Assembly (NCBI RefSeq): GCF_020360975.1
Contig: NW_025408679.1
Coordinates: 1-64,000 of the forward strand
Length of the DNA stretch: 64,000 bases
Reading direction: 5' to 3'
Source of the DNA: Hirsutella rhossiliensis
Taxonomy: Eukaryota > Ascomycota > Sordariomycetes > Hypocreales > Ophiocordycipitaceae
This document shows, piece by piece, positions 22,604 through 50,108 of this stretch. Numbering within the stretch: the first letter of the stretch is position 1; each line of letters begins with the position of its first letter. The position numbers were made by a program, and so were the translations under genes. Below the pieces are notes generated by a model that was given only the letters and a program-made list of their open reading frames with translations, did not search any database and had not been told where the DNA came from.

Positions 22604-23456
22604 GTTGTAGAGTGGGCCCCACGGAAGGGTGGCTCGTTGCCGTTCTTGTCAGGCTGCAGGTTGACTTCATGATCCACACCCGGTCGATGTGGCGGCAGCT
22701 TCATTGCCTCTCCTGGTGAGAATAGGTCGCGGAATTCTTTCAGCACTTCTGCCGGGACCTTCTCGCTCGGATCGACTGGCGGCTTCGGCTGAAGCGCCTC
22801 TATATCCGACAAACTGATTGCATGAATCGAGATCGCGTTGCACTTCTTGCGTCTCTTTGCGCGTCGACATTCCGCCGTGAATACGGCTGCCGACACGAGT
22901 CTTGCGCTTCGAATCGCGCGTATCTTGGCGGGCTCTTCCTGCCCAATGAGGCGTATCGTCACACCTGCCCTCCCATGGTACATCTGCTGCTTGGCAGCAT
23001 CGTACACGACGTGATTTCTCTCCATCCAAGGCCGGCCGAGGAACATGTCCTGGCCCAGGCTTGGGATCACGTATGCAAAGACACGTTCGTCAAATCCAGC
23101 TGTCTCGACCACAACAGCCACGACCCTGGGGATATGACACTCTTCGCTGACTCTGAGAATCCCCCAATTTCTCGTGGTTTCGAGTCGACGAAGGGTATCC
23201 GCAGCTTCCGAACAAGGGCTTCGTCGATCACGGCATAGCAGTCACATCCACAGTCGACAAGGGCGCGTATTCGATAGCCTCGGTTTACCCGCGCGTTGAC
23301 TAATACAGTCCGACTATTCATTCGTGGCTTGAACGCTTCCCAGTCCCGGATGTCTGCCTTTGCAGGCCCCGGCGCCCGCTTTCGCCCCGGGGCTAGTCTT
23401 TTCCGCCGACTCGTCCTCACTGGATGCTGCGGTTGATTCCGAATCATCTGCGGCAT
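22564..23456 (-). pseudogene. Chromovirus aspartic protease region
   Basis: The 23456-23067 frame contains VNRGYRIRALVDCGCDCYAV, where the retropepsin D[ST]G active-site triplet reads DCG, a Ser/Thr-to-Cys change. The second half (23121-22564), with AYVIPSLGQDMFLGRPWM, is the conserved ILGRPWL-type flap end of Gypsy proteases, leading into the RT N-terminus. A frame change lies in the 23067-23121 overlap. The DCG triplet could be natural in this lineage or a mutation. Confidence 0.8.
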
Positions 23457-24484
23457 CGGGCTTCTTCATGCGCGCAGCTTTAGGTCGCTGTTGCTTCCCT
23501 TCGCCAGGAAAGACCACCTGGGCTGGGCAGTCCACGATAAGATGATCCGTCCGACCACAGCGATAGCAGCGGCGCTCATCCTTCGGCTTCTTATCGACAT
23601 GTCGACGACCCTTCGACTCGTGGCCAATACGGTTGATGTCCGTCATCTTAACATCTCCGTCGGGGTCCTCCGGTTCCTCCTTGGGTCGTTGCCTTGGTAG
23701 CTGTTGAGGCGTCCGCTCAGTCGACGTCGGCTGCCTACCGGGTTTCAGTCTCTCCAATCTGCCCGCAATTTCCTGAACTCTCGCAAGCCATCCCTGGTAG
23801 TCGTCGGGTAGGACGGCTGTGACCAAACTCTCTTGGAGGCGTGCATTTATTGCGTTCTCTAGAAATACGATCTTTGCACTGTCCGGCCAGTCTGCTCCCC
23901 CGGCTTCAGCTAATGCCTGTTCGAATCGGGGAAGGAAGGACGCGAGAGGTTGGTCTTCGCGCTGCCGCATAGTTCTCAGCGTGGCAGCAGCGCGGGATTG
24001 GATGTTGCTGTCCTGGTAGGTTCGGTCGAGGTATCGCATGAACTCTTGGGGTCGTAGCTACCCCAGGGCCTCCCGCGGCGTAAAAGGTAGCGACCACTTG
24101 CTGTGGTCGCTCGTCCAAACATGAGTTGATGAGGTACCAAAGTTCGCGATTTCCACTGTAGTAGTGTGCATCAAGGTCCAGCTTGTCTCGCATCTGCCTG
24201 GCCCAGGCGGAGTAGCTCTTCCGTGAGCCGTCATACTTGGGTGGGTTGGGCAACGGTTTCCGCATTCCAGTACCGCAGGTTTTGGGGAGGGGCGTGCCCA
24301 AGCCAGGCGTGCTCTCGCCCAATCCTCGTGCCACTGGCGGCGATTGCAAGTCGGCGCTCTGCGGCTGCGCTCGCCCGAGTTGCTCCATCAGCAAGGAAAG
24401 TTGGTCCTGTAGAGGGCTGAGAGTCGCATTGACCGCTTCTTGAATGCGTTGGTCAATCCATTGCTGCTGGAGACTTGGGCTCAC
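23314..24484 (-). pseudogene. Chromovirus gag with CCHC zinc knuckle
   Basis: It starts at an ATG at 24484. The N-terminal part holds a coiled-coil-like QLSLLMEQLGRAQ and the capsid start KYDGSRKSYSAWARQMRDKL. A frame change near 24060 leads to the 24039-23314 frame with RYLDRTYQDSN, RQREDQPLASFLPRFEQAL and the nucleocapsid knuckle CYRCGRTDHLIVDC (C-x2-C-x4-H-x4-C, about 23527-23571). A basic, serine/acid-rich tail follows. This is the structural protein that packages the element RNA. Confidence 0.9.
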
Positions 24485-28182: not shown

Positions 28183-28617
28183 TATCGCGAAGCGTGGCCT
28201 GATTTCGCAGTTCTCGGAGATATCCCTTAGCACGAGGGACCTAGGAAGCTAAAAAACAGGTTTTAAGGAAGGAGCTAAAAAGAGGTATAGAAAGGAGGGT
28301 GGGGGCATAAGGGGAAGCAGAAGTGGCGATGGCTTCCTATAGAGGTAGTAAGAGATAAGACGGATGTGCCGGCAACGGCTAGAAAGGAAGGGAAAAACCG
28401 GCAAAAAGCTCGGTAGTTAAAAGGACATTAGTAGCTTCTTTAAGCAGGATCTTCTTTGTTAATTAAGATGCTAGACGGGTATAAAGAGGGGCGTTAGATA
28501 GAGGAAAGAAGGACAATCAAGGCAATATAAATATCTCTGCCCTACCTGTCTAACCCCTTACTTCTACTTTTACCTTCGTGCATTTTATATGCACTTCTCG
28601 TATCTCTCTACGCGAGA
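28183..28617 (+). repeat. 5' LTR of Copia C1
   Basis: Starts TATCGCGAAGCGTGG (TGTCGCG in less mutated copies) and ends TACGCGAGA. At 435 bp it lacks a ~40-bp segment present in the C2 LTRs. Confidence 0.88.
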
Positions 28618-28631
28618 GTTATAAGCCCGGG
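28618..28631 (+). promoter_or_regulatory. Primer-binding site of Copia C1 (tRNA-iMet half)
   Basis: GTTATAAGCCCGGG directly after the 5' LTR. The complement of the anticodon arm of initiator tRNA-Met is GTTATGAGCCC. The single difference is a TG-to-TA change of RIP type. Drosophila copia is known to prime from an internally cleaved tRNA-iMet, so I infer the same here. Confidence 0.65.
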
Positions 28632-28817
28632 AGGAATAGTATTCCTATACCTTCCGGCTGCTATAAAAGGCACCTTTCTTGCATCCCTCGTAGCTTCCTT
28701 TTACCCCTCTTATTAGAAAAGCCGATTTATACCTAACTTTTCTGCCCCCCCTCTTCCGCAACGATAACGAAAACCGACTCCTCTACCGTCCCTACGGTCC
28801 ATAGGACGATTCTTATA

Positions 28818-29900
28818 GAGCCCTAAGATTAGGATAAGTAGGTAAAGGAGCTACGGGCTCGTATAGACAGAACTATCTATAATTTAGTCTTCTCTAATAA
28901 GCAGGACCCTCTCGAGCCCCCTCTTCGTCCTAGGGCAACGGAATTTATAGAGGGAGCTTCCCTCTTCTCCGAGCTAACCTCTATACAACAGAGAGCTTTT
29001 TCTGCTGCCTTAGGTAACTACGAGAGTCACCGTAAGGAATACCTTTACGAGACGAAGTTGCTAACTACTATACGCACGGCGATAACGGAATCCGTTAGTG
29101 CTGTAAAGCTAATTACTCTTCGAGAAGAAGAGACTCCTAGGCAGTGGCTTTTAAAGCTCGAGACCTCGACAGCTCCCTTAAGGGGCTATATAACTAACCG
29201 TATTAGGAAGACCTATACGGCCTACCTAGGAGCCTTTTCTGCTAGGAACCTACTAGCTTCTTCGTGGCTAGCTAAGTAGGAAGAAATCCTTAAGGAAGCT
29301 AACTAATACTTCCTTATAGAAGCTCTTTCCGGCTAGTAGCTACGGGATATATCTCTACTAATAAAGCCTATTAGTAACGGTTACTCGACTATCTTTTAAG
29401 AGGCTAGCCGGGAACTAGACGAAGAGGCTACTAGAGTATAATAGTAAGTAGTCTTATTCCTTTGTGGCTAGCACTCGACCTAGACGGCTCGACCTACTGC
29501 CCCTGCAGCTGCTGCAGCCCCTGTTGCTGCGGCTCCCGCTGCTGCTGCTGCGGCTATTGCTCCTTCGGCTCCTCCTCCCTCGAGAGCATTAACACCGTTA
29601 TTAACGGCTGCCCTAGGCCCGGCCCCGGCTCCGACTCTTGCTCCGGGCCCGGCCCCGGTCCCGTTAGTTAGACCGGCCTGACTAGTCCCCTAATAGACCT
29701 TTTAGTCCGTTAGTCGAAAAATCAGGGAACTAGTCGAAATCGAACCTCGTTAACATTAGTAATAAGGGGTAAAAAGGGGGGGTTTTTAAGCAGACCTTCC
29801 GGATCGGGACGAGGATTCCTCGAAGAAATAGAAGACTAGACAACGAAACGGCTGCCTAGCATATAAATCCCTAGGCCATCGATTATCACAATGCTAGCAG
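28818..29900 (+). pseudogene. Copia C1 gag with zinc knuckle
   Basis: The readable frame includes QQRAFSAALGNYESHRKEYL and a 73-residue open stretch at 29058-29279 (EEETPRQWLLKLETSTAPLR). This is typical of a Copia Gag (UBN2-like) capsid. A Pro/Ala-rich stretch follows (29490-29660). Near 29852-29896 a nucleocapsid knuckle reads CLAYKSLGHRLSQC, where the second Cys is now Tyr (TGT to TAT by RIP). Confidence 0.75.
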
Positions 29901-30559
29901 GTCTTCGAGGAAAACCGACCCGAAGGATTCAACCCTTTAAAGAGGCTATAAGAAACGATATAACAGTCTCTTAAGGAGGACCCCTCGTTGTAGAAGAAGA
30001 TAGACGAGATTCGGGTTGCTAAGAAATAGTAACTAACGCCGCTGCCCTTATTCGAGCCGCAAATTCGAGGAAAAATCGTTAGTATAGCAAATCCGGCATT
30101 CGTCTTCCCTACGAATTAGCAAGACTAACCGTTAGGACCCTCCGATTATCCCCTACGAAAATCAGCTATCCTTAACTCTAGTGCTTCCCTCGATATCTAT
30201 AATACACTCTCACGATTCCGGTCCTTTAAGAAGGCATAGAGGGAATACCTTATTGCCGGGGAATTAACCGTACGGATAGAGGGGTACGGAAGGGTGAATT
30301 TCACGATAAAATTACCTAATAGGTCTATACGAATTCTTCGACGAAAAAGGGTAGCTTTTTGCCCTCGATTTTTAACGAGCCTAATTTCCTTCCGCCTTCT
30401 TTAAGAGGAAGGAATCTTCTAGGATACGACGTCTAAGCCTACGAGGCTAGTCTAGAAGAATCAGACTATCGGGCCTATCGAGGAAAAATTCGGTTAATTT
30501 ATTCTCGAATTCCGACCTATCCCTAGGAAGGAACCTCTCGAGAAGTTAGCTTTCCCTAC

Positions 30560-31250
30560 TAGGAGGAATAGGTCTACTATAAAGGACCCTCTTCTAGCAG
30601 CCTAAGGAGACGGCATTCTTTAGCACGCACGACTTAGTCACCCGGGCCCCCTAGCTTTGCATAAGCTAGGCTAATAATAAGGCGTACGAATAAGGGGCCT
30701 AAAGACCGTCGAATGCGAACACTACGGCTAAGGAAAGACTAGGAGACGAATTTCTAGACGAACGCCTTTACGGCCGGACCAGCTATATAAGGAAATTTAG
30801 GTCGACTAGACCGACGTCTCTAGGGATCAGGAAAGCTTCGTTAGGGTAATGTTTTTTATAGACGCTTTTTTAGGGATGGTTTTCCCCTATTTCTTACGGA
30901 CCTACCTAAGCAAGCATAACTAGTCTGCCCTCTAGGACTTCGTTAACTAGATAAAATCCTACTTTAGCTACGAGGTAAAGAAGATACGGTCTAACGGAGA
31001 GCTATTTACGAAGGATATCTTAAATTAGCTTTAAAAAAGGGGCATTTTACCCCTCCCGTTAGCACCGAATACCTAGGCCTAGAACGGAGGGGCAGAAAGA
31101 TCAGGGGGTGCTATGATAGAAAGGGCCCGTACGATGAGACTTACTGCAAGGCTTCCACACGACCTTTAGAGGGAAGTCGTTGAGACCGCCTATTACCTAC
31201 GGAACCGGACCCCGAGAGACCTAAAGGACCCTAGGGGACTAAACTAAGGA
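30560..31250 (+). pseudogene. Copia C1 integrase
   Basis: A plus frame with a few RIP stops reads VD*TDVSRDQESFVRVMF, then FVN*IKSYFSYEVKKIRSNG. It then reads NGGAERSGGAMIERARTM (about 31081-31138) and AYYLRNRTP, the Copia signature around the catalytic glutamate and the downstream NR[TS]P motif. Trp codons have become stops. Confidence 0.85.
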
Positions 31251-32329
31251 ATAGACTAGAAATCCCCCCTCGAGCTCTTTACGAAGAAGAGGGCCTCGCT
31301 AGCCTACCTTCGTGCCTACGGTTGTAAGGCATATGTAATAACTGCCGATGTATAGCTAAAAAGGAAGAAGAAAAGAAAGCTTAATCCTAGAGCCTTTATT
31401 GGTTACCTCGTTAGTTATAATTCTACGAATATCTTCCGGATCTAGATCCCTCTTCTACGGAAGGTTATTTTAACTAGGGATATGATTTTCGACGAATTTA
31501 GCTTCTTTAACGGAAAGAGGGATCAATAGCCCTTTTTACTCTCTTAACGTTAGCTAATTTAGAAGATTTAAATCCCCCCTTCCTAATAGTCTTAAGAAGA
31601 AGTCCTAGACAAGGAAACGGAAGAAGAAACCGACGTCGAGAGCAGTCGAGGATAACGCCGACTTCGAAGAGGAAGCTATTAGATTAGATAATCTAGACGA
31701 AGAAGGAGACTATAGGAAAGCGGTAGAGCTAGAATACGCCTACCTACCTACGCCTCCTCCTACGTAAGAAGAAGATCTAGAAGCAGCTTTTTTAGTTAGT
31801 CTTCCCGTCTCGACCCCTAAGGGGGTAGGAAAGGTACCTCTCTTAAAGGATTACCCGGCTGCCTTTTTATCCCTGCTTCGAGAAGCAAAGGAAGGTATAG
31901 GGCCCGATACGGATACTAAAGAAGACTAACCTCTCCCCTATTTCGATCGTTTTTCCGACTTCTACCTAACGCTAATAAGACGGTTCCCACGACGTTTATA
32001 GCAGGCCGGCTTTTTAAGCCAGTATTAGCAAGGAAGGTATATAAAAGAGACCTCCCGGACCTACTAGCAAACCAGAAGCAGCTAGAAAGACACCCCTTTA
32101 GAGACTAGTTTTTCTAGGCCTAGAAAGACCACCTAGCCTTATACGAAGAGATAGGGTCTTTCGAAGAGGTCCTTAAGGAAAAAGCAAGAGGAAAACAGGT
32201 CCTTAGCTATAAGTAGGTCTTTATCTATAAGACTAATAAACACGGCTTCCTTTAAAAGTGTAAGGCCCGGCTAGTTATTTATAGGAATTAATAGGAAAAA
32301 GGGGATTTACCTACTAGGGCAACCACCCT

Positions 32330-33610
32330 AGCTAGGATGTCTTTTCGGACCCTTATAGCTATAGTAGTAGAATTCGACCTCGAGCTCGATTAGATAGATG
32401 CAGTTAACGCCTTTATTAACTGCCTACTCGAGGAAGAAGAAGTTATCTATATGCGCCTTCTACTAAGCTTCTAATAGCTAGGAAAGGTTCTACGGCTTAG
32501 GAAAGCTCTATACGGACTACGAAGATCACCCCTTCTTCAGCAACAGCATTTAATAGGTTCCCTCGAAGCCCTAGGCTTTAAGAAAGTCCCTTAGGAACCG
32601 TATATAATATAGAAGGGTAAAATCACGGTCTTCTTCTACGTCGACGATATTATCTAGGCCTACCTAAAAGGGGAAGAGGCTACTACTAGGGAGGCTATAC
32701 GAGGCCTATAATAAAGGTATAAGATAACTAGGCTAGGGGAGCTAAAGTAGTTCCTAGGGATACGAATCCTTAGGAATAGGTCCTAACGGACTATCTAGCT
32801 TACCTAAGACGCCTATATCGATAAGGTCGCTTATAAATTCCTCCTTAATTCCCTCGATAAGAAGCTTCCCTCTACGCCTATATTAGACGAAGAGCTTTTG
32901 CCTGATCCGTCCTTTTAAGCTAGGGAGCAAGAGAAACACTAATATTAATAGAAGGTAGGCTCCCTGCTTTTTTTAGCTATTTCTACTAGACCGGATATCT
33001 CTTTTACGGTCTCCCGGCTAGCTAGGCATAACTAGAATCCTAGCCCTAGGCATTAAGAAGCAGTAGATAGAGCTATCCTTTATCTCTATTTAACGAGATT
33101 ATATAGTCTGCGCCTAGGAGGGCAGAAAAGAAAGAAATTAGCTGCCGAAATCTTCCTTTATTCGAGCGATTCGTCCTTTGCGGACAATTCCTTAGATAGA
33201 AAGAGCTTATAAGGGTATATTATATCCCTTTTTAGAGGAACTATTGCTTATAGAGCTTCGAAGCAGGCTACCGTTATAACTTCTAGTACGGAGGCAGAGC
33301 TACTAGCTCTTTTAGAAGCGTTAAAAGAAGCGATTTTCCTTAGCCGGCTACTAATATCGTTACGACTGCAAATTCCGTCCCCGTTAGCTATAGAATGCGA
33401 TAACACGCAGACTATACGAATTCTTACGGAGGAAAATAGCAAGCTGTCGACCCGGCTACGGCATATCGATATCCACTAGCATTGGTTACGCTAAGAGGTC
33501 TAAAGGGGACTTATTTCCGTCCGTTAGGTTCTAACGGCATCAATAAAAGCCGACGGTCTTACGAAGCCCCTACCGAAGTAGAAGCTAGCTATCTTTTTAT
33601 AGCAAATTAG
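32330..33610 (+). pseudogene. Copia C1 reverse transcriptase and RNase H
   Basis: RT: FDLELD*IDAVNAFINCLLEE matches the Copia AFLNG-type region, and FFYVDDII contains the catalytic YVDD (32637-32648). RNase H: STEAELLALLEALKEAIFL, then ECDNTQTIRIL, then RLRHIDIH*HWLR. These are the standard Copia motifs with Trp or Tyr/Gln codons replaced by stops. Confidence 0.9.
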
Positions 33611-33887
33611 GCTAGAAGACGTTCGAGAGAAGCTATCCTTAGAAGCCCGCCTTAAGAGTCTACGAGAGGAGCTAATGGCACGTAGGAGGAAGGAGACGTC
33701 TATAGCCGAAGAGAGGAATTAGGACTTATCCTAGAGGAGGGCCCCTAGCTTAATTAGGACTTATTCTTCTTAAAGGCCCCCTTTTTAGGGACTTATTCTT
33801 AGAGAAGCCCCCTTTCTTATAGGACTTAATTTCCTCCTTAAGGCCCCTTTTCCTAAAGTAGGTCTAAAAGAGCCTAGGGCTAAAACC

Positions 33888-34194
33888 CGGGAAGCAGAAG
33901 TGGCGATTTCTTCCTATAGAGGTAGCGAGAGATAAGACGGATATACCGGTAACGGCTAGAAAGGAAGGGAAAAACCAGTAAAAAGCTCGGTAGTTAAAAG
34001 GATATTAGTAGCTTCTTTAAGTAGGATCTTCTTTGTTAATTGAGATGCTAGACGGGTATAAAGAGGGGCGTTAGATAGAGGAAAGAAGGACAATCAAGGC
34101 AATACAAACATCTCTGCCCTGCCTATCTAACCCCTTACTTCTACTTTTACCTTTATGCATTTTATATATACTTCTCGTATCTCTCTACGTAAGA
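33888..34194 (+). repeat. 3' LTR of Copia C1, 5'-truncated
   Basis: It matches the 5' LTR from GGGAAGCAGAAGTGGCG to the end TACGTAAGA. The first part and the polypurine tract are deleted. Confidence 0.85.
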
Positions 34195-35069
34195 GTTATA
34201 AAATAGCTTAATCTCTATTTATACCTATAGTATAAGGTATAACTTAATAGCTAGGAAGAATCTATAGTCTAGTTATACTTTATTTACTATATAATACTAA
34301 AGGAGCTTATTATTAATATTATAAAGAGAAATAAAAAGATATTTAAAGTTATTTTAAAACTCCTATATAAAAGCCTTATCTATATAATTAATAACTACTT
34401 AGTACCTTACTAGGTCGTTAAGCAACGAGATATAGCTTCTAAAGTCTATAATTAAAAGCTTAAGAACCTAAAGAAAGACTAGCTTTTTAGGGAAATTAAT
34501 AAAGTAATAAAAGAAGCTAAATCTAATAAGGGTAAAGAAAAACTTCTTAAAGAGTTAAAGAAAATAAATAAGAAACTTAAATAGCTTATAAAGGAGATCT
34601 TAAACTTAATAAAAGCCTTTAAAGATATAAAGATTAACCTTACTTACTAGTAAGAGTAGATATTTAACTAGCTTAATAGGGAATAAAGATATATTAGTAG
34701 TAAAGGCTACTTTTTAAGTTATAAATAAAAAGGTAGCGTAAATACTATCGGATTTTACTACCTATCTAATTAATATATATAGCTTTAGGTTAATACTTTT
34801 AACTAGCTTAGGAGATACTTTTATTATAGTAAAGAATAATACTACCTTTATAAATATAAGGTATACTCTTAAGACTATAAGATTAGATTTATAATATATA
34901 AAGTAGTAAATAGGACTCTTTACTTTAAAAGAAAAGATAATAAAAGCGTAATTCCCTTAGTACTTACTAATAAGTTTTCTTAAATAGGTATATATATTTA
35001 AAGGCTTATTATATACTAGGTAGATATATAGCTAGACTCCTTTATATTACTACTTATAAAATAAGTTAA
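34195..35069 (+). mobile_element. Gypsy family X copy 1, segment b
   Basis: It continues segment a after the C1 insertion and is collinear with about 55192-56058 of copy 2. It ends at GTTAA (35065-35069), which is duplicated at 41716-41720 around the TRIM-plus-C2 insert. Confidence 0.85.
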
Positions 35070-35258
35070 TATCACGAAAAAGATATAGCCGCCTATTAGA
35101 TATAAGCGACAGCGTCAATTAACGCATATAGTATACGCGACACACCCCCTTAGGGATATCGGGTTAATTCGTCCCGGGATACCTGGATATCCTAGACTAT
35201 AGCGGGAATTTTTATATAGGCAGGCCCCATGCTGAAACCGCGCTCAATTGCGCTGGCG

Positions 35259-35304
35259 GGACTCGAACCACGGGCCTTTCGGGTAGTGCGCGCCAGGCTA
35301 GCCA
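35259..35304 (-). promoter_or_regulatory. tRNA-like A and B boxes inside the TRIM
   Basis: On the minus strand TGGCTAGCCTGG (35304-35293) resembles an RNA polymerase III A box and GGTTCGAGTCC (35269-35259) matches the B-box consensus. They are 23 bp apart, a little short for a tRNA. The flanks do not fold into a full cloverleaf, so this is a tRNA-derived fragment rather than a tRNA gene. It gives the element a SINE-like feature. Confidence 0.6.
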
Positions 35305-35356
35305 GAAGAAGTGCGTGCGCAGTCACCGGGAAGTTCCCGGAGGGGTAACCCCTCCG

Positions 35357-35370
35357 CCCGGGCTTATAAC
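35357..35370 (-). promoter_or_regulatory. Primer-binding site of the TRIM
   Basis: On the minus strand, GTTATAAGCCCGGG follows the 5' LTR directly. It is identical over 14 bases to the Copia C1/C2 primer site and again fits a half-tRNA-iMet primer with one RIP transition. Confidence 0.7.
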
Positions 35371-35451
35371 TGTCACGAAAAAGATATGGCCGCCTGTTAG
35401 ATATAAGCGACAGCGTTAATTGACGCATATAGTATACGCGACACACCCCCT

Positions 35452-35927
35452 TGTCGCGAAGCGTGGCCTGATTTCGCAGTTCTCGGAGATATCCCTTAGC
35501 ACGAGGGACCTAGGAAGCTAAAAAACAGGTTTTAAGGAAGGAGCTGAAAGGAGGGGTAGAGAGGAGGGTGGGGGCATAAGGGGAAGCAGAAGTGGCGATA
35601 GCTTCCTATAGAGGTAGCGAGAGATAAGATGGATATGCCGGCAACGGCTAGAAAGGAGGAGAAAAACCGGCAAAAAGCTCGGTAGTTAAAGGGACATTAG
35701 TGGCTTCTTTAAGCAGGATCTTCTTTGTTAATTAAGATGCTAGAAGGGTATAAAGAGGGGCGTTGGATAGAGGAAAGAAGGATAATTAAGGCAATATAAC
35801 AATCACTCCCCTACCGCAATTGCTACTCCCGCAAGAATTAAATCTCTCTGCCCTGCCTATCCGACCCCTTACTTCTAATTTTACCTTCGTGCATTTTTAT
35901 GCACTTCTCGTATCTCTCTTCGCGAGA
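35452..35927 (+). repeat. 5' LTR of Copia C2
   Basis: 476 bp, starts TGTCGCGAAGCGTGG and ends CGCGAGA. It is the least mutated LTR start in the window. Confidence 0.92.
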
Positions 35928-35941
35928 GTTATAAGCCCGGG
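35928..35941 (+). promoter_or_regulatory. Primer-binding site of Copia C2
   Basis: GTTATAAGCCCGGG immediately after the LTR, the same as in C1 and in the TRIM. Confidence 0.65.
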
Positions 35942-36129
35942 AGGAATAGTATTCCTATACCTTCCGGCTACTATAAAAGGCACCTTTCTTATATCCCTCG
36001 TAGCTTTATTTTACCCCTCTTACTAGAAAAGCCGATTTTTAACCGACTTTTCTACCCCCCCTCTTCTTTCGTAATAATAACGAAAATCGACTCCTCTGCC
36101 GTCCCGACGGTCCGTAAGACGATTCTTAT

Positions 36130-39100
36130 AGAGCCCTAAGATTAGGATAAGTAGGTAAAAGAGCTACGGGCTCGTATAGATAGAACTATCTATAATTTGG
36201 TCTTCTCTAATAAGCAGGACCCTCTTAAGCCCCCTCTTCGTCCTAGGGCGACGGACTTTATAGAGGGAGCTACCCTCTTCTCCGAGCTAACCTCTATATA
36301 ACAGAGAGCTTTTTCTGCTACCTTAGGCGACTACGAGAGTCACCGGAAGGAATACCTCTATAAAACGAAGCTACTAACGGCTGCTCGTACGGCGATAACG
36401 GAATCCGTTAGTGCCGTAAAGCTAATCTCTCTTCGAGAAGAAGAGACTCCTAGGCAGTGGCTTTTAAAGCTCGAGACCTTAATAGCTCCCTCGAGAGGGT
36501 ATATAACTAACCGTATTAGGAAGACCTATACGGCACACCTAGGAGCCTTTTCTGCTAGGAACCTGCTAGCTTCTTCGTAGCTAGTTAAGTAGGAAGAAAT
36601 CCTCGAGGAAGCTAACTAATACTTTCTTATAGAAGCTCTTTCCGGCTAGTGGCTACGGGATATATCTCTACTAATAAAGCCTATTAGTAACGGTTACTTA
36701 ACTATCTTTCGAGAGGCTAGCTAGGAACTAGACGAAGAAGCTGCTAGAGTATAATAGTAAGCAGTCTTATTCCTTCGTGGCTAGCACTCGACCTAGACGG
36801 CTCGACCTACTGCCCCTATAGCTGCTATAGCCCCTATTGCTATGGCTCCCGCTGCTGCTGCTGCGGCTGTTGCTCCTTCGCCTCCTCCTCCCTTGAGAGC
36901 CTCAACGCCGTCGTCAACTGCAGCTGCGGCCCCGGCCCCGGCTACGTATCTTGCTCCGGGCCCGGCCCCGGTCCCGTTAGTTAGACCGGCCAGACTAGTC
37001 CCCTAATAGACCTTTTAGTCCGTTAGTCGAAAAATCAGGGAACTAGTCGAAATCGAACCTCGTTAAAATCAGCAATAAGGGGTAAAAAGGGGGGGTTTTT
37101 AAGCAGACCTTCCGGACTAAGACGAGGATTCCTCGAAGAAACAACGTATAAGGAGGAATCGACCTACCTACTAAGCGTGCAAAAAGCCCTATCGGCTAGA
37201 GGACTGCTAGCAGGTCTTCGAGGAAAACCGACCTAAAGGAATTAACCCTTTAAAGAGGCTACGAGAAACAGTATAATAGTCTCTTAAGGAGGACCCCTCG
37301 TTATAGAAGAAGATAGACGAGATTCGGGTTGCTAAGAAATAGCAACTAATAACGCCGCTACTATAAATTCGAGGAAAAATCGTTGGTATAGTAAATCCGG
37401 CCTTCGTCTTCCCTACGGATTAATAAGGCTAAGACTAACCGTTAGAACCCTCCGACTATCCCCTACGAAAATCAGCTATCCTTAACTCTAGTGCTTCCCT
37501 CGATATATATAATATACTCTTACGATTCCGGTCCTTTAAGAAGGCACGAAGGGAATATCTTATTGCCGGGGAATTAACCGTACGGATAGAGGGATACGGA
37601 AGGGTGAATTTCACGATAAAATTACCTAACGGATCTATACGAATTCTTCGAAGAAAAAGGGTAGCTTTTTGCCCTCGATTTTCAACGAGCCTAATTTCCT
37701 TCTGCCTTCTTCGAGAGGAAGGAATCTTCTAGGATACGACGTCTAAGCCTACGAGGCTAGTCTAGAAGAATTAGACTATCGGGCTTATCGAGGAAAAATT
37801 CGGTTAATTTATTCTCGAATTCCGACCTATCTCTAGGAAGGAACCTCTTAAGAAGTTAGCTTTCCCTACTAGGAGGAATAGGTCTACTATAAAGGACCCT
37901 CTTCTAGCAGCCTAAGGAGACGGTATTCTTTAGCACGCACGACTAGGTTACCTAGGCCCCTTAGCTTTATATAAGCTAGGACAATAATAGGGCGTACGAA
38001 TAAGGGGACTAAAGACCGTTAAATGCGAATACTACGGCTAAGGGAAGACTAAGAGACGAATTTCTAGACGGACCCTAATACGGCCGGACCAGCCGTATAA
38101 GGAAATTTAGGTCGACTAGACCGACGTCTCTAGGGATTAGGAAAGCTTCGTTAGGGTAATGTTTTTTATAGACGCCTTTTTAGGGATGGTTTTCCCCTAT
38201 TTCTTACGGACCTACCTAAGTAAGTATAACTAGTCTGCCCTTAGGGACTTCGTTAACTAGATAAAATCCTACTTCGGCTACGAGGTAAAGAAGATACGGT
38301 CTAACGGAGAGCTATTTATAAAGGATATCTTAAATTAGCTTCGAAAAAGGGGCATTTTACCCCTCCCGTTAGCACCGAATACCTAGGCCTAGAACGGAGG
38401 GGCAGAAAGATTAGGGGGTGCTATAATAGAAAGGGCCCGTATAATAAGACTTACTACGAGGCTTCCCTACGACCTTTAGAGGGAAGTCGTTGAGACCGCT
38501 TATTACCTTCGGAACCGGACCCTAAGGACCTAAGGAATAGACTAGAAATCCCCCCTTAAGCTCTTTACAAAGAAGAGGGCCTCGCTAGCCTACCTTCGTG
38601 CCTATAGCTATAAGGCATACGCTATAACTACCGATGTATAGCTAAAAAGGAAGAAGAAAAGAAAGCTTAATCTTAGAGCCTTTATTAGTTACCTCGTTAG
38701 TTATAATTCTATAAATATCTTCCGGATCTAGATTCCTCTTTTACGGAAGGTTATTTCGACTAGGGATATGATTTTCGACGAATCTAGCTTCTTCGACGGA
38801 AAGAGGGATTAATAGCCCCTCTTACTCTCTTAACGTTAGCTAATTTAGAAGATTTAAATCCCCCCTTCCTAACAGTCTTAAGAAGAGGTCCTAGATAAGG
38901 AAACGGAAGAAGAAACCGACGTCGAAGCAGTCGAGGATAACGCCGACTTTAAAGAGGAAGCTGCTAGATTAAATAATCTAGACGAAGAAGGAGACTATAG
39001 GAAAGCAGTAGAGCTAGAATACGCCTACCTCCCTACGCCTCCTCTTACGGAATAAGAAGAAGATCTAGAAGCAGCTTTTTTAGTTAGTCTTCCGTCTCGA

Positions 39101-40960
39101 ACCCTAAGGGGTGGAAAGGCACCTCTCTCGAAGGATTACCCGGCTGCCTTTTTATCCCTGCTTCGAGAAGCAAAGGAAGGTATAGGGCCCGATACGAAAG
39201 AAGACTAGTTTCTCCCCTATTTCGATCGTTTTTCCGACTTCTACCTAACGCTAATAGAAGACGGTTCCCACGGAGCGTTTATAGCAGGCCGGCTCTTTAA
39301 GCTATAGCTATTAGCAAGGAAGGTATATAAAAGAGACCTCACGGACCTACTAGCAAACTAGAAGCAGCTAGAAAAACACCCCTTTAGAGACTAGTTTTTC
39401 TAGGCCTAGAAAGACTACCTAGCCTTATACGAAGAGATAGGGTCTTTTAAAGAGGTCCTTAAGGAAAAGGCAAGAGGAAAACAGGTCCTTAGCTATAAGT
39501 AGGTCTTTATCTATAAGACTAATAAACACGGCTTCCTTTAAAAGTATAAAGCCCGGCTAGTTGTCTATAGGAATTAATAGGAAAAAGGGGATCTTCCTAC
39601 TAGGGCAACTACCCTAGTAGGGATATCTTTTCGGACCCTTATAGCTATAGTAGCAGAATTCGACCTCGAGCTCGATTAGATAGATATAGTTAACGCCTTT
39701 ATTAACTGCCTACTCGAGGAAGAAGAAGTTATCTATATACGCCTTCTACTAGGCTTCTAATAGCTAGGAAAGGTTCTACGGCTTAGGAAAGCTCTATACG
39801 GACTACGAAGATCACTACTTCTTTAGCAATAGCATTTAATAGGTTCCCTCGAAGCCCTAGGCTTTACGAAAGTCCCTTAGGAACCGTGTATAATATAGAA
39901 GGGTAAAATCACGGTCTTCTTCTACGTCGACGATATTATCTAAGCGTACCTAAAAGAGGAAGAAGCTGCTGCTAAGGAGGCTATACGAGGCCTATAATAA
40001 AGGTATAAGATAATAAGGCTAGGGGAGCTAAAGTGGTTCCTAGGGATACGAATCCTTCGGAATAGGTCCTAACGGACTATCTAGCTTACCTAGGACGCCT
40101 ATATCGATAAGGTCGCTTATAAATTCCTCCCTAAATCCCTCGATAAGAAGCTTCCCTCTACGCCTATATTAGACGAAGAGCTTTTGCCTAATCCGTCCTT
40201 TTAAGCTAGGGAGTAAGAGAAATACTAATATTAATAGAAGGTAGGCTCCCTGCTTTTTTCAGCTATTTCTACTAGACCGGATATCTCTTTTACGGTCTCC
40301 CGGCTAGCTAGGCATAACTAGAATCCTAGCCCTAGGCATTAAGAAGCAGCAGACAGAGCTATCCTTTATCTCTATTTAACGAGATTATATAGTCTACGCC
40401 TAGGAGGGCAGGGAAGGAAACAAGCTACCGAAATCTTCCTTTATTCGAGCGATTCGTCCTTTACGGACAATTCCTTAGACAGAAAGAGCTTATAAGGGTA
40501 TATTATGTCCCTTTTTAGAGGAACTATTGCTTAGAGAGCTTCGAAGCAGGCTACCGTTACGACTTCTAGTATAGAGGCAGAGCTACTAGCTCTTTTAGAA
40601 GCGTTAAAAGAAGCGATTTTCCTTAGCCGGCTGCTAATAGCGTTATAACTGCAAATTCCGACCCTATTAGCTATAGAATGCGATAATACGTAGACTATAC
40701 GAATTCTTACGGAAAACAGTAAGTTATCGACCCGGCTATAGCATATCGATATCTACTAGCATTAGTTACGCTAAGAGGTCTAAAGGGGACTTATTTCCGT
40801 CCGTTAGGTTCTAACGGCATCGATGAAAGCCGACGGTCTTACGAAGCCCCTGCCGAAGCAGAAGCTAGCTATCTTCTTATAGCAAATTAAGCTAGAAGAC
40901 GTTCGAGAGAAGCTATCCTTAGAGGCCCGCCTTAAGAGTCTACGAGAGGAGCTAATGGCC
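36130..40960 (+). pseudogene. Copia C2 gag-pol with RIP stops
   Basis: Collinear with C1 gag-pol: gag (about 36130-37200), integrase with a GGAERLGGAIIERA-like segment (about 38380-38450), RT with YVDD (39923-39934), and RNase H with SIEAELLALLEALKEA (about 40570-40640) and ECDNT. Many Trp, Gln and Arg codons are stops, so no protein can be made. The order and lengths allow the family consensus to be recognised by comparing copies. Confidence 0.88.
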
Positions 40961-41230
40961 CGTACGAGAAGGTGACGTCTATAGCCGAAGAAAAGGAAGA
41001 GGTTTTTCCCTTTAGAGGGCCCCCTATTTTAATTGGGTTTTCCCCCCTTTCTTATAGGACTTTCCCCTCTTTAGGCCCCTTTTCCTTAAGTAGGTCTAAA
41101 AGAGCCTAGGGACCCGAAAGGGCCCCTACTTTCCTCGAGTAAAGGGAGAAGTATAGAGCTAAGAACCTCCTCTATACGCTTACTAGCCCGAAGCCGTATT
41201 AGCTATGCCCTTAAGGGGCAGGCTATAGCT

Positions 41231-41715
41231 AAGGGGGTGTGTCGCGAAGCGTGGCCTAATTTCGTAGTTCTCGGAGATATCCCTTAGTACGAGGGACCTA
41301 GGAAGCTAAAAAACAGGTTTTAAGGAAGGAGCTAAAAGGAGGTGCAGAGAGGAGGGTAGGGGCATAAGGGGAAGCAGAAGTACCGATAGCTTCCTATAGA
41401 GGTAGCGAGAGATAAGACGGATATGCCGGCAACGGCTAGAAAGGAGGAGAAAAACCGGCAAAAAGCTCGGTAGTTAAAGGTACATTAGTAGCTTCTTTAA
41501 GCAGGATCTTCTTTGTTAATTAAGATGCTAGAAGGGTATAAAGAGGGGCGTTAGATAGAGGAAAGAAGGATAATTAAGGCAATATAACAATTACTCCCTT
41601 GCCGCAATTGCTGCTCCCGTAAGAATTAAATCTCTCTGCCCTGCCTATCCGACCCCTTACTTCTAATTTCACCTTCGTGCATTTTTATACACTTCTCGCA
41701 TCTCTCTTTATAAGA
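41231..41715 (+). repeat. Polypurine tract and 3' LTR of Copia C2
   Basis: AAGGGGGTG at 41231-41239 precedes a 476-bp LTR (41240-41715) of the same length as the 5' LTR. The insert ends with GTTAA (41716-41720), matching 35065-35069. Confidence 0.9.
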
Positions 41716-43950
41716 GTTAAAGCTATAATTATACTATCTTACTTAAATTAAGCTATTAGTAAAAGAGAATTTAGTTTCCTAGACTAATTTTAGAGATATA
41801 AAAGCCTATATAAGTAAAAGCTAAGGAATCTAAACGTAAGTAATATAAGAAAAGAAGTAGGAAGGATATTAGTTATTATAATTATAGATAATATATAATA
41901 AAGCAATATATATAATTAGATAATCTATATAATTATAATAAGGATTAATACTTATAAAGGAAAAAGATAAAGAGTTAAAGAGGATATAAAAGAAATCGAG
42001 ATAATAAAAATAGTAAAAACTAGCTTAAAGATTATCCTTATATACTATAGATATAAAGTAGATCTAGATAAGTAGTTTAATAGACTTATAGATAAAATCG
42101 TCGAAGAAATTATATATAAAAGAATCTTAATCCCTTTAAATTACTTAATTAACTTTATTCCCTAACTAAGTAAGAAACTTAGTATAAGATGTATATATAT
42201 AGCCTAAGGTATAGAAAATACTAAATTCTAGACCTTAAAGAACGTAAAGAGTAATATAAGACCTTATAAAGCTACGATAATAGTTATAAAAGTAGCTAAA
42301 GATAATATAAAGAGTAGTTTACTCCTTCTTAAATATCTATAAGGAAAACTTATAGTAGCTTTAGTATAAGTTAAAGAATAAAATAAAGAATACTAGGTCG
42401 AACCTATTAAGCTTACTTACCTTACTTATAAAGAATTAAATTATAAGTGCTTTAAAGTCTAATAAGTATTAAAGGAAGTTAGGTTTATAACTAATATAAT
42501 TAGCGTAACGTAACTAGCCTAAGGACTATTTAATTAATAAACTCTAAAGGTAATAAGACTAAGGAAAAACGAATTTATTATATAGGAAGTAGTACTCTTA
42601 ATAAGAAACTAAGAGATAACTTTAAAGGACCTTATAGCGATTCTTATAATATATATAAATATAGTCCTTATACCCTTCCGCTCACTTAAGTATATATAAG
42701 ACCTACCCTATATTTAAGTATAGCTTAGTAGCTAGAAAGCTAAAGTTCTAAGTACTTTAATTAATACTAGGTTTAAAGGAAACCTTATTATTAAAAGATA
42801 TATAACTATATATAGGCTTAAAATCCTATTAATAAGAGTATTAATAACGGCGTATACTAGGTCCCTTATAGATATAGTTAGGGAGGTAGAGACTAATCTC
42901 TATCTAAGTATAGCCTAGATATTAATCTATTTTTATATTACGCTAAATAGAGTCTTAGTCCCTTTTATCTTAGGTATACTATTTATTAGAGCCGTACGTA
43001 TATTATTTAATTATTAATTAAGGAATAGCGATATATAGGTTAAATATTAAATCGGTACTATCTAAGTAGTTATATTAGCGGTAGGAGCTATTAAATAAAA
43101 GCTTTTAGATAAGGTCGATATAGTAAAATCTTTTTATACTATAACCTTAATAGTTAATAAAGATATATATAAAAGACTAAAGCTTAAGGAAACTATATAC
43201 GAAATAGCTACCTAGCTCCTAAGAATTCTTTTTAGGCTTTAGTAATAGAAGTTAAAGAAGATAACCTAGGAGCTACCTAATAATTATAAAGAGAATCCCT
43301 TATAGATACCTTAATAGCCGAGACTCTCTTACTAAGAAGTAAGATCCTTAGTTATAGAGGGGGCGCTAACTAAGTCCTTAACCTAGCCTATACTAATATA
43401 AATAAGCCCTTAATAGTACTAGTATAATAGTAATTAATTATAGATAAAGGAGATAAAGCGATTCTAGTTATTAGATCTAAAATAGTAAAAGAGATTATTA
43501 AAGTTATAGTTATAAAGGCTATAAGAGAATTTAAGAAAAATATTATTAGAGCTAGAAAGAAGTTTAAAAAGATCTAAAAGGTTAAAGTTAAGATAGGGAG
43601 GAAACGACCTATTAAATTATATAATCTAAGAGTTAATACTATCTTTAAAAGAAAAGTAAATAAGATTAACCTAATTAATAATACTTTATTAAACGGCTTA
43701 ATATTAAAAGGGGACCTTAACTAAAAAAGGACTAAATAAAATACTATTAAAGATAAGATATAGCCTAGACCCTACTTTAAAATACTTAATAGGAAAGTTC
43801 TTAAGTATATAAAAAGGAAAGCGGCTTTTAAGGGCTTTCTTATAAAGGTAGAAATCTAGATCTTCGATAGTATTTTATTTAATAAGGAAGTAGCGTTATC
43901 CTAGGACTTTATAAAAAGAGGTAAAGTCGACCTAGTTATAGCCCCCTTAT
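41716..43950 (+). mobile_element. Gypsy family X copy 1, segment c (protease region)
   Basis: Collinear with about 56054-58286 of copy 2. It carries a long plus-strand frame with RIP stops, including a retropepsin-like region (VREVETNLYLSIA near 42880 and a VPFILGILFI-like stretch near 42960). It ends where Copia C3 begins, after CCCCCTTAT. Confidence 0.8.
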
Positions 43951-46411
43951 TCTCGCAAAGAGAGATATAAGAAGTATATAAAAATGCACGAAGGTAAAAT
44001 TAAAAGTAAGGGGTCGGATAGGCAAGGTAGAGAGATTTAATTCTTACGGGAGCAGCAATTGCGGTAGGGGAGTAATTATTATATTGCCTTAATTATCCTT
44101 CTTTCCTCTATCTAACGCCCCTCTTTATACCTATCTACTATCTTAATTAATAAAGAAGATCCTGCTTAAAGAAGCTACTAATATCCTTTTAACTACCGAG
44201 CTTTTTACCGGTTTTTTCCCCTCCTTTCTAGCCGTTGCCGGCATATCCGTCTTATCTCTCGCTACCTCTATAAGAAGCTATCGCTACTTCTACTTCCCCT
44301 CTTACCCCTACCCTCCTCTCTATACCTCCTTTTAGCTCCTTCCTTAAAACCTGTTTTTTAGCTTCCTAGGTCCCTTATGCTAAGGGATATCTCCGAGAAC
44401 TACGAAATTAGGCCACGCTTCGCGACATACCCCCTTAGCTATAGCCTGCCCCTTAAGGGCATAGCTAATACGGCTTCGGGCTAGTAAGCGTATAGAGGAG
44501 GTTCTTAGCTCTATACTTCTCCCTTTACTCGAGGAAAGCAAGGGCCCTTTCGGGTCCCTAGGCTCTTTTAGATCTACTTAAGGAAAAGGGGCCTAAAGAG
44601 GGGAAAGTCCTATAAGAAAAGGGGGAAAAACCTAATTAAAATAAGGGGCCCTCTAAAGGGAAAAGCCTCTTCCTTTTCTTCGGCTATAGACGTTACCTTC
44701 TCGTACGTGCTATTAGCTCCTCTTATAGACTCTTAAGGCGGGCCTCTAAGGATAGCTTCTCTCGAACGTCTTCTAGCCCTATTTACTATAAAAAGACAGC
44801 TAGCTTCTACTTCGGTAAGGGCTTTATAAGACCGTTGGCTTTTATTAATACCGTTAGAACCTAACGGACGGAAATAAGTCCCCTTTAGACCTCTTAGCGT
44901 AACTAATACTAGTAAATATCGATATACTATAGCTAGGTCGATAGCTTGCTATTTTCCTCTATAAGAATCCGTATAGTCTATGTATTATTATATTCTATAG
45001 CTAACGGGGACGTAATTTATAGTCGTAACGATATTAGTAGCCGGCTAAGGAAAATCGCTTCTTTTAACGCTTTTAAAAGAGCTAGTAGCTCTGCCTCTAT
45101 ACTCGAAGTTATAATAGTAGCTTATTTCGAAGCTCTCTAAGTAATAGTTCCTTTAAAAAGGGATATAATATACCCCTATAAGCTCTTTCTATCTAAGGAA
45201 TTATCTATAAAGGACGAATCGCTCGAATAAAGGAAGATTTCTATAGCTTGTTTCTTCCTTTCTAGCCCTCTTAGGCGTAGACTATATAATCTCGTTAAAT
45301 AGAGATAAAGGATAGCTCTATCTACTACTTCTTAATGCCTAGGGCTAGGATTCTAGTTATGCCTAGCTAGCCGGGAGACTATAAAAGAGATATCCGGTCT
45401 AGTAAAAATAGCTAAAAAAATCAAGGAGCCTACCTTTTATTAATATTAGTGTTTCTCTTACTCCCTAGCTTAAAAGGACGGATTAGGTAAAAGCTCTTCG
45501 TCTAATATAGGCGTAGAGGGAAGCTTCTTATCGAGGGATTTAGGGAGGAATTTATAAGCGACCTTATCGATATAGGCGTCTTAGGTAAGCTAGATTATCT
45601 ATTAGGACCTATTCCTAAGGATTCGTATCCCTAGGAACTACTTTAGCTCCCCTAGCTTAGTTATCTTATACCTTTATTATAGGCCTTATATAGCCTCCCT
45701 AGTAGTAGCTTCTTCCTCTTTTAGGTAAGCCTAGATAATATCGTCGACGTAGAAGAAGACCGTGATTTTACCCTTCTATATTATATACGGTTCCTAAGGG
45801 ACTTTCTTAAAGCCTAGGGCTTTAAGGGAACCTATTAAATGCTATTACTAAAGAAGGGGTAATCTTCGTAGTCCGTATAGAGCTTTCCTAAGCCATAGAA
45901 CCTTTCCTAGCTATTAAAAGCCTAGTAGAAGGCGTATATAGATAACTTCTTCTTCCTTAAGAGGGTAGTTAATAAAGGCGTTAACTATATCTATCTATTC
46001 GAGCTCGAGGTCGAATTCTGCTACTATAGCTATAAGGGTCCGAAAAGATATCCCTACTAAGGTAGTTGCCCTAGTAGGTAGATCCCCTTTTTCCTATTAA
46101 TTCCTATAGATAACTAGCCGGGCTTTATACTTTTAAAGGAAGCTATATTTATTAGTCTTATAGATAAAGACCTACTTATAGCTAAGGACCTATTTTCCTC
46201 TTACCTTTCCTTAAGGACCTCTTTAAAAGACCCTATCTCTTTATATAAGGCTAGGTAGTCTTTCTAGGCCTAGAAAAACTAGTCTCTAAAGGGGTGTCTT
46301 TCTAGCTGCTTCTAGTTTACTAGTAGGTCCGGGAGGTCTCTTTTATATACCTTCCTTACTAATATTAGCTTAATAGCCGGCCTACTATAAACGCTTTATA
46401 GGAACCGTCTT
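43951..46411 (-). mobile_element. Copia C3, inverted and 5'-truncated
   Basis: The minus-strand element enters from its 3' LTR (43951-44427, 477 bp, ending CGCGACA). The 3' untranslated part with TACCCCCTTAGC (polypurine reversed), RNase H and RT (YVDD codons at 45740-45751 on the minus strand) follow. It stops at about 46411, at a point corresponding to the region before RT, where unrelated sequence begins. No second LTR is present. The 64-residue open frame at 44946-45140 is an antisense shadow of RNase H. Confidence 0.9.
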
Positions 46412-47690
46412 CTATAAACGCTAAGATACTCGAGATCGTCGCTATTATTACTAGTATAAAGTACCTCCTTACCTATTTAAAGATATTTAAGGCCGCTACT
46501 ATAGAGGAGCGCGAGGCCTCTAGTATACTAAGAACTTATAAGTTTAGAGAGACCCTTAAGCGTACCCTAGCTAAGACCGGAGGATCTAATATAGTAGACC
46601 TTATATTTAACGAGCTATTAAGGAACCTATTTACTAAACGCCTACCCGCCGCCGCCGCGGCCCTACCCTTTACTCCCTTTAAGCGGGCTAACTTATTCGC
46701 TAAGGAATAGGCCCTAATACCGGTTTAATAAAAGCTTAACCCCTTCTAGGTTCTAAGCCGCGGAAAGCCTAGACTATTCCCTATTATACCTTTTATAGTA
46801 TACTATAATAACCTAGGCGATACCGACGGCTATATAGGTATTATTTACTCTAGGTTAGAAGCGCTAGTCTATAGAGCCCTAAACGCGGCCGTAATCTAGG
46901 TAAATCTATTCGCTACTATCTATAAGGAGGCTAACGCCGACCTCTCGCTTAGCTAGTACGCTGCCCTCGCCGGAGTACCTACTAGCTTTATTTATCGGTT
47001 CGCGTTCGCCGCTTACCTCTTAGACGACTCGCCTAAGCTTACTATAGCTTACTAAAGAGCCGCCCGCGTTAGCCCCCTATATACGCTAGTCGTGGCCCGC
47101 CCTTATATAGCTAATATAATAGCCTATTTTAACTTATTAGACTAAAAGTTTACTAACGCGTACTTAGGCGGATTCTAGAACCTAGGCCTAACTATATAGG
47201 TATTAGTAGTAGTAATCTATAACTAAATTCTAGCCTCTCGCGATAGACTAGCTATAATACTCTTAGTAGAACCGGCTCTAAATAACGCTTATAGCGTGCC
47301 TATCTATAAAGCCTCCGATATATAGGATGCCCCGGCTAACGTACCGGTAGGCCCTAAGGAACTAATAAAGGAGGAGGCTAAGGAGGAAATCCCCCGCCCT
47401 ACCCTTACCCCTATAGCGTAAGACGGTCGGTTACTAGGTTAGCCTTATAGTATTCCTAGCCCTATTTATTTTATTACTAGCTTAGCTATAGAGCGCCCTT
47501 AGTTATAATTAGTTTTCCTTAGCTTAGCTATACTACGCCCCTAGCCCTACTTATTTATTACCTTAGTTTTGCTACTTAGCGTCCCTAGTCTTAGTAGTAT
47601 TTTACTCTTAGCTTAGCCGCCTCGCGCCCTTAGTATTAGTTATACTAGGTTACGTTCTAGATAAAAGATAAGTTATTCTTTATACTAACC
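46412..47690 (+). pseudogene. RIP-degraded gag-like open frame, family unknown
   Basis: A plus frame with relatively few stops reads NAKILEIVAIITSIKYLLTY, LKRTLAKTGGSNIVDLIFNE, AFAAYLLDDSPKL and AYLGGF*NLGLTI, ending in an Ala/Pro/Glu-rich stretch. The length, the helix-rich character and the position among LTR elements suggest a gag-type protein, but I recognise no diagnostic motif. It could belong to family X or to another element. Its left edge is the C3 breakpoint. Confidence 0.4.
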
Positions 47691-48489: not shown

Positions 48490-50108
48490 TATATAATTAT
48501 AAGGGCTAAATTAAAATTCTACTAGTAAGTAACTAAAGTTATTAGTTATATCTATAAAATAAATAAAAGGTACTATATAAAAGCTAAAGTTATTAAAATT
48601 AAGGAATAAATAAGATACCTTAATATAATATATATTAGAGTTTTCCTTAGTATTATACGATACTATTAAATCTAGATTAAATAGTTTACTATCTTAGTAA
48701 AACCCTTTATAGACCTATTAAAAAAAGAAGTCTATTAAGAATAAGGAGATAAATAAGAAAAAGTAATAGCTGCCTTTAAGGAAGCTATTATTAATCTAGT
48801 CTTTTTAATATCCCTTAATATTAGCTTAGAAAGAAGAGATATTATTTTAATATATAATACTAGTCTACTTAGCTAGGAGGTAGTCTTAATATAAATCGTT
48901 AATAAAAAAAGCGCCCTATAAGGTTCGAAAGTAAAACGTAGTTATTAGTAGAAACTAAGTATAATATAATAAAGAGGGAGTATAAGGATATATTAAGTAC
49001 GCTTAAGAGACTAAGAATATACCTATATAGTATATATTTTATCTTAGAAACTAACGTATAAGTCTTAGTTAATTAACTAAAAGGTGCCCTTAAAGGCGTT
49101 CTTAGAACTATAGTAACTTATTAGATAAGCTATATTTTCCTCTTTAACTTTACTATATAATACGTCGAAGGTAAGAAAAATAACGTAGCTAATACGTTAA
49201 AGGTAAGAAAAATAACGTAGCTAATAGACTCTTAAGAAAGCTTAAAGGATATTTTAATATATTAAATAAGGAAAGAAAAAGCGATATTAAAGAATTTATA
49301 AACTTTTACTTAAATATAGTATAAGGGACTAAGCTATAAGGGGACTACTTAAAGGAATCGAGGATAATTATATACTTCCTTTAAACGTTAAAACGGCTAG
49401 AGGGCCTTTCTTAATAAGACTATAGGAAGCTATATCTAAAGAGTTTAAATTTCTAAGTTAAAGATTAAAAGCTTTAGCGACTTCCTAAGAAGGAAGGAAG
49501 GGGACCTATACTAGTTAAAAATAACCTAAAAAAATAGAAAAGAATTATTATAAAGTACTATACCTAAATAGGATATAAGGGCCGATAAGTTATATATATA
49601 TTTATAAAGAATAAGTATTAGTAGGCTAGCCTTTAAAACGATATTTATAGTATAATCTCTTTTTATAAAGAATACTAATACTTTATAACTAAGAGACCGT
49701 AGGAAGTTATACCCGCGACTACGCTTAGCTACCTTATATATAAGATTTACTTTAATAGCTAGTATATATTGTCTAATTATAGGTATTTATACCTAATAAA
49801 AGTATAAGATAACCTTATTAAATAGGTAGAAGTAACCTTAGTTAAAGAAATTACTATAGGAGCTATAACTTAATTTATACTCTTAATTATTTATAGGTAT
49901 AGCGTAATACTATACGCTATAATTAATAGAGGGCCTAAAATAAAAAAAGACTTTAAGTATATCCTAGAGGATATAAGCGTTAAAGTTATTTAAACTTTAG
50001 TATATAATCTAAAAGCGAACATAGTAGTAGAATAAGGGTACTAAAGGTTAATAATAGTACTTATAAAAATAGTAGAGAAAAAGGGTAAGTAGATTAAATA
50101 CCTTAACT
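48490..50108 (+). mobile_element. Gypsy family X copy 3, pol 3' part
   Basis: It matches copy 2 from about 58905 to 59775 and then continues beyond the point where copy 2 is interrupted. It therefore shows RNase H (LETNVQVLVN-like) followed by an integrase region (about 49590-50090) that is absent from the other copies. It is cut on the right by Copia C4 at 50109. Confidence 0.75.

Follow-up and report, generated by a model that had tools for sequence, protein, structure and literature searches.

The nearest known system to the element described here is Helenus, in which fungal TRIMs (miniature LTR retrotransposons) with tRNA-like Pol III boxes have already been published (Kojima 2024, PMC10886601). 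In fungi, that paper records Helenus elements from Pucciniales and some Agaricomycetes. The Helenus / TRIMp3 elements share with the Hirsutella rhossiliensis family reported here, TRIM1, a fungal host, 5-bp duplications, a link to copia elements and a primer-binding site (PBS) that lies mostly on the anticodon loop of a tRNA; initiator Met is the most common PBS tRNA and box B (GGTTC) is conserved, as here. The same paper describes half-tRNA priming for Ty5, Drosophila copia and most fungal Helenus. In Helenus the tRNA-like sequence lies inside the LTRs, whereas TRIM1 has box B only, in its internal region, and the LTR of a second family, TRIM2, holds box A only, with box B internal; by the LTR definition in that paper, neither is a Helenus element.

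Two other TRIM systems are close. Cassandra, too, is short and non-coding, with LTRs and Pol III motifs, but its LTRs are derived from 5S and Pol III transcripts have been reported for it, whereas TRIM1 is known here from DNA alone and its chimeras point to partners (PMC10886601). That paper also gives as unknown how the dependence of TRIMs on an autonomous partner is maintained, with nothing pointing to the partner of Cassandra. TRIMs are also listed in Cochliobolus heterostrophus (PMC4112212), which are, like those found here, from an ascomycete and copia-linked; they are described as deletion or recombination derivatives, and the available portion of that paper mentions no Pol III boxes or joint insertions. 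The preliminary description of the present locus, in which TRIMs were assigned mainly to plants and tRNA-like boxes in one were called unusual, overstated this rarity, as publications already describe fungal TRIMs, some of them with tRNA-like Pol III boxes (PMC10886601 and PMC4112212). For compound insertions, the closest precedent is the set of template-switching complexes from grasses (Sabot and Schulman 2007, PMC1950507), which contain two internal regions, three LTRs and one 5-bp duplication. Among open-licence papers, searched by titles and abstract openings, we found no TRIM/copia hybrids joined at the primer site and no TRIMs in Hirsutella.

The window analyzed here is a stretch of 64,000 nucleotides from H. 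rhossiliensis, a nematode-killing fungus of the Hypocreales (Ascomycota), the order to which its congener H. minnesotensis is also assigned (PMC4255773). The genome searched was a single assembly of 82 Mb. Window positions 35070-35443 were confirmed to be a 374-bp TRIM that belongs to a dispersed family. The direct repeats, as had been proposed, are 73 bp each; the match extends to approximately 80 bp, but the added length is due to purine-tract bases in reversed orientation, CACCCCCT (35444-35451), that reappear where the neighboring element adjoins. The PBS and the purine tract (PPT) that had been noted beside the repeats are both present, and both are on the minus strand, which is the sense strand. 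In that direction the 5' LTR (35371-35443) is followed by the primer site GTTATAAGCCCG (35359-35370), a box B GGTTCGAGTCC (35259-35269), the purine tract AAGGGGGTG (35143-35151) and, directly after it, the 3' LTR (35070-35142). The preliminary description overlooked this minus-strand sense, as well as a target duplication that the element shares with the adjoining 6.3-kb copia element. With a length below 1 kb, two LTRs, no coding capacity, a PBS after the 5' LTR and a PPT before the 3' LTR, TRIM1 has the structure of a TRIM. Its non-coding character holds, since the longest stop-to-stop frames across it are 83 and 105 codons and neither was matched to any family.

The family-wide sequence that follows the 5' LTR, GTTATRAGCCCG, is the complement of the anticodon arm in the initiator tRNA gene (L061) of this genome. 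At its R position 14 of 40 copies have G and the other 26, the window copy included, have A, which is a RIP-type change; as a result 11 of 12 bases are complementary to the initiator tRNA half in the window copy. From its sequence the PBS is predicted to be a site of half-tRNA priming on the anticodon arm of the initiator tRNA. A PBS pattern from other fungi (ending CCCTGY) gave 1 match versus 4 in the control and was replaced by the genome's own initiator tRNA. A hairpin after the PBS was also considered as a packaging signal and rejected, with z values of approximately -0.9 and -1.1 for the TRIMs, -2.9 and -3.3 for two copia elements of the window, and -0.1 for an intact copia element (L093).

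Using the 374-bp element as the query, the best 40 of 246 candidates in the genome were found to be 91-100% identical, and all 40 were read with approximately 1 kb of flank. Exact 5-bp target duplications lie precisely at the ends of the 73-bp repeats in 35 of the 40 copies, which is the dispersal that the preliminary description had proposed to look for; when flanks from different copies were paired as a control, the mean was 1.0 and the maximum 6 of 40. Five copies lack an exact duplication: L024, which has one mismatch, and four that are parts of compounds, namely the window copy, L031, L034 and L036. The two LTRs of the window copy are unlike at 5 of 73 sites, and all five differences are transitions at CpA/TpG, in agreement with the RIP-type changes reported earlier. 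Across the 40 copies, 139 of 174 LTR-LTR differences carry this RIP signature, and because RIP dominates, the divergence between LTRs is not usable as a clock.

The second family, TRIM2, adjoins the TRIM1 copy at L031. It is 387 bp long with 96-bp LTRs that are unlike those of TRIM1, but its PBS is the same and its PPT, GAGGGGGTG, differs from AAGGGGGTG at one base. In a genome search, 28 of the best 40 of 290 candidates cover the whole query by coordinates. Seventeen of these 28 loci were read, and exact 5-bp duplications flank 14 of them, compared with a mean of 0.1 and a maximum of 2 in the control; copy L105 has no target duplication. The TRIM2 LTR contains a perfect box A, TGGCGCAATGG, seven bases 3' of a run of four T, and a box B that matches at 10 of 11 positions is found 150 bp beyond it in the internal region. 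Since these scores are reached in approximately 6% (box A) and 2% (box B) of shuffles, neither box is decisive alone. At window positions 402-466, a 65-bp unit resembling a solo LTR also has a perfect box A and is bounded by the duplication ACTGC (397-401 and 467-471). It shares the box-A-bearing LTR end with TRIM2, and the upstream parts differ. The best 40 of 138 candidates for this unit are 87-100% identical; among the matches listed there was no two-LTR copy, and no two lie within 1 kb of each other.

The Pol III motifs of TRIM1 itself were upheld in part. The box B is perfect, with a score reached by 0 of 5000 first-order Markov shuffles, while the best box A scores 10 of 11, a value that approximately 76% of 1500 shuffles attain; box A is therefore unsupported in the TRIM1 family. 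The tRNA-like core that had been suggested is reduced to this box B. ARAGORN and Rfam found no tRNA in the window or near TRIM1, and none was found with both in L093, L031, L110 and L124, or in L111. A tRNA or SINE origin is rejected on these grounds: a tRNA-derived SINE lacks LTRs and carries boxes A and B in a tRNA-like head at its 5' end, and TRIM1 has LTRs and no tRNA at the loci tested. It could still be proposed that TRIM1 is chiefly a SINE-like Pol III element with incidental LTRs, as the perfect box B of TRIM1, the two boxes of TRIM2 and the LTR block common to TRIM2 and the 65-bp unit would allow. We find this hardly credible, because LTRs, PBS, PPT and 5-bp duplications are features of LTR elements, the TRIM1 box A is at the level of chance with no tRNA fold, and an internal start of transcription would omit the 5' LTR. 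In the 3' region of the intact copia L093 (5888-5941), a box-A-like TGGTCAAACGG and a box-B-like AGTTCGACTCC are 32 bases apart; ARAGORN and Rfam found no tRNA there.

The element next to the window copy, copia B, is on the plus strand and consists of a 5' LTR (LTR3, 35452-35927), an internal region (35928-41239) that starts with the primer site GTTATAAGCCCG and ends with AAGGGGGTG (41231-41239), and a 3' LTR (LTR3, 41240-41715) in which 448 of 469 aligned bases are identical to the 5' LTR. Its PBS and PPT are the same as those of TRIM1. A single duplication, GTTAA (35065-35069 and 41716-41720), surrounds TRIM1 and copia B together, and neither has its own. The two were therefore probably one integrating molecule, joined before insertion. 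When their junction was searched for with 3 mismatches allowed, there were 8 matches, as many as in the control, and the exact match is in the window alone. A neighboring element, copia A (28183-34194), has its own duplication, GTTAT. The one intact copia that was read, L093, has a 1315-residue frame, LTRs that are 99.7% identical and the duplication CTTAC. Its Pol matches RVT_2, and the Pol stretches of copia A and copia B are 37% identical to it over approximately 500 residues (499 for copia B). The PPT AAGGGGGTG is common to TRIM1, copia B and L093, and all 12 PBS bases match the initiator tRNA half in L093 and TRIM2. The LTR of L093 matches none of the 15 sequences with which it was compared; it was not seen as an LTR donor, and L093 is thus not named as the partner of TRIM1. 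Further copia fragments with LTR3-like LTRs are found at 43952-46423 (minus strand) and 50108-53749.

Hybrid elements were sought with the internal region of TRIM1 alone, which avoids a bias toward its LTRs. Among the best 40 of 187 candidates, 27 were already in the list of matches to the 374-bp query. The remaining 13 comprise one native copy (L124) and 12 in which the 3' LTR is the element's own but the 5' LTR is foreign, with the joint at the PBS. These 12 of the 40 internal matches listed represent 11 sites, because the flanking sequences of L113 and L118 are the same. Eight hybrids, among them L122 with a rearrangement upstream, carry the copia B LTR (LTR3) as the foreign LTR; two from one site carry an L111-type LTR, L119 carries LTR2 and L112 yet another LTR. 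Elements with two unlike LTRs were found at L112, L113, L115 and L116 for TRIM1 and at L111 for TRIM2.

Longer chains were also identified, one of them in the window. This second compound, on the minus strand, comprises, in order of rising window position, LTR1 as the 3' LTR (59780-59852), the TRIM1 internal region behind a foreign LTR (59853-60076), a copia LTR3 directly before the TRIM1 primer site (60077-60552) and a copia internal region (60553-64000) that continues past the window. The 5' end of that region is at C13:65708-65867 (L127), with LTR1 before it, ending at C13:65939; the compound was read apart from C13:64001-65699. The duplication AAAAC is found at 59775-59779 and C13:65940-65944. 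With 1 and 2 denoting the parts of TRIM1 and TRIM2, the order of this compound (59780-65939) is LTR1-copia-LTR3-int1-LTR1, and L120 has the same order. The others are LTR3-int1-LTR1-copia-LTR3 (L114 and L117), LTR2-copia-LTR3-int2-LTR2 (L110) and LTR1-int2-LTR2-int1-LTR1 (L119). The copia-bearing chains were read at both ends and at the joints, and the intervening copia in part. In all these chains each internal region starts at the PBS behind the LTR of another element, and where the sequence was read its own 3' LTR comes next.

One exact outer 5-bp duplication was found at 14 distinct compound or mixed-LTR sites (the two window compounds, L031, L034, L110, L111, L112, L113/L118, L114, L115, L116, L117, L119 and L120), which are not proven to be separate events, since chains could have multiplied as units. 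The duplication at L110, for example, is ATAAA on both sides. A fifteenth site, L036, is a chain inside a copia element with one mismatch (ATTTT versus ATTTC). Loci L109, L121, L122 and L123 were left out of this count; L131, the sequence examined for L123, had no element match. If the compounds had formed after integration, by recombination of neighbors or by insertion exactly beside another element, unrelated outer flanks or an extra duplication would be expected in place of the single exact duplication at these 14 sites. Moreover, LTR1 and LTR3 yielded no overlapping match when compared, and the stretch shared beside the joints is the short PBS. Nested and tandem elements are frequent here (copia A, copia B and the fragments in the window), and in approximately 7 Mb of Triticeae sequence 20 recombinant complexes were counted versus 2 template-switching ones (PMC1950507), but we consider a post-integration origin very improbable. 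Somewhat less improbable, though still unlikely, is that the chains are read-through RNAs of older adjacent elements that were then copied as units. The recurrence of one order in the second window compound and L120, as from one master copy, is what this would predict, but read-through leaves the two-LTR copies with unlike ends (L111, L112, L113, L115 and L116) unexplained.

A census of junctions was made with a 29-base pattern of the TRIM1 LTR/PBS junction, allowing one mismatch, which gave 130 matches; 97 of the 100 listed are exact. Among these 97, 14 have copia-type GA ends and 2 have TRIM2-type ends, so that 16 of 97 are foreign by letters. Alignments were read for 11 of the 14 and 1 of the 2, and all 12 are foreign. 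For copia internal regions there were 472 matches, with a TRIM-type end by letters in 7 of the 100 listed; because CGYRANA is required upstream of the PBS, the junction patterns overlook LTRs that end otherwise. The TRIM2 census gave 98 rows, 93 with letters, of which 28 are GA-type and 11 TRIM1-type, but these values are not a hybrid rate, since so short a pattern may also hit other families and L095, among the GA rows, is a native copy of full length. Twelve of the best 40 TRIM2 loci have no match to their own 5' LTR. Two of them, L110 and L111, were read and both have foreign LTRs; by letters, the other ten include five GA-type, one TRIM1-type and two native-type ends, and two are not listed.

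Taking together the family with its boundaries and target duplications, the shared PBS and PPT, the mixed LTRs and the single outer duplications, we propose with a probability of roughly 0.78 that TRIM1 is a non-autonomous miniature LTR retrotransposon of the Ty1/copia type that is copied by copia elements of the same genome, forms hybrids by strand transfer at the PBS and is integrated with them as one unit. The trans-mobilization, co-packaging and strand-transfer steps are those that we infer. Copia elements with the identical half-tRNA primer and purine tract would package and copy TRIM1 RNA. The minus-strand DNA of such an element would terminate at the PBS, and the plus-strand DNA of another would terminate with a copy of the same tRNA half. 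With identical primer sites, plus-strand DNA made on one element could pair with the minus strand of a different one, and extension would then give LTR_A-PBS-int_B-LTR_B. Exchange by both molecules would produce a heterodimer with equal outer LTRs. Integrase may insert either this heterodimer or a cDNA with unlike LTRs as a single unit, leaving one 5-bp duplication. Four joints are away from the PBS, at window position 35444 and L031 (head-to-head) and at L034 and L109 (end-to-end), and these call for a second route, for example end-joining. On this reading, the compound of TRIM1 and copia B is a joint insertion of a rarer, head-to-head form, and the purine-tract bases at its junction suggest a plus-strand primer that was not removed.

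The arrangement found in grasses, with a single duplication, two internal regions and three LTRs, is present in the second window compound, L110, L114, L117, L119 and L120, the copia internal regions having been read in part. The outer LTRs are alike in these six chains; they are unlike in L111, L112, L113, L115, L116 and the compound at 35070. The grass complexes are composed of near-identical elements with outer LTRs that are alike, and the switch was proposed to occur in the R region (PMC1950507). In H. rhossiliensis, by contrast, unlike whole LTRs are joined at the PBS, two-LTR copies have unlike ends and 16 of the 97 exact TRIM1 junctions listed are foreign by letters. Switching in the R region would predict chimeric LTRs and needs R homology; in the comparison made here, LTR1 and LTR3 yielded no overlapping match. 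As a tentative and rather doubtful extension, PBS-to-PBS transfer between unlike elements might be a regular outcome of TRIM replication in this fungus that yields TRIM/copia heterodimers, in which copia coding regions lie between TRIM LTRs and may travel in that form, and TRIM2 might use a split Pol III promoter whose box A lies in the LTR and whose box B is internal. If joint insertions preserve a record of co-copied elements, as they may, the partners of a TRIM could be read from the genome, and given the share of foreign 5' LTRs among the TRIM1 internal matches, a direct test of primer-site strand transfer is feasible.

Several other features were observed. Two TRIM1 LTR/PBS junctions at C8:2159108 and C8:2159407 are separated by 299 bp, as two tandem TRIM1 units with an LTR in common would be. 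At L109 (C1:8901213-8901648), letters resembling the end of a copia LTR, CTCTACGCGAGA, run straight into a TRIM2 copy without an intervening PBS. In the window, a Gypsy-type RNase H frame and a gag-like frame with a zinc knuckle are found at 21099-21938 and 23314-24039 on the minus strand, and the frame at 6607-7278 encodes a YhhN-family protein and is likely a host gene.
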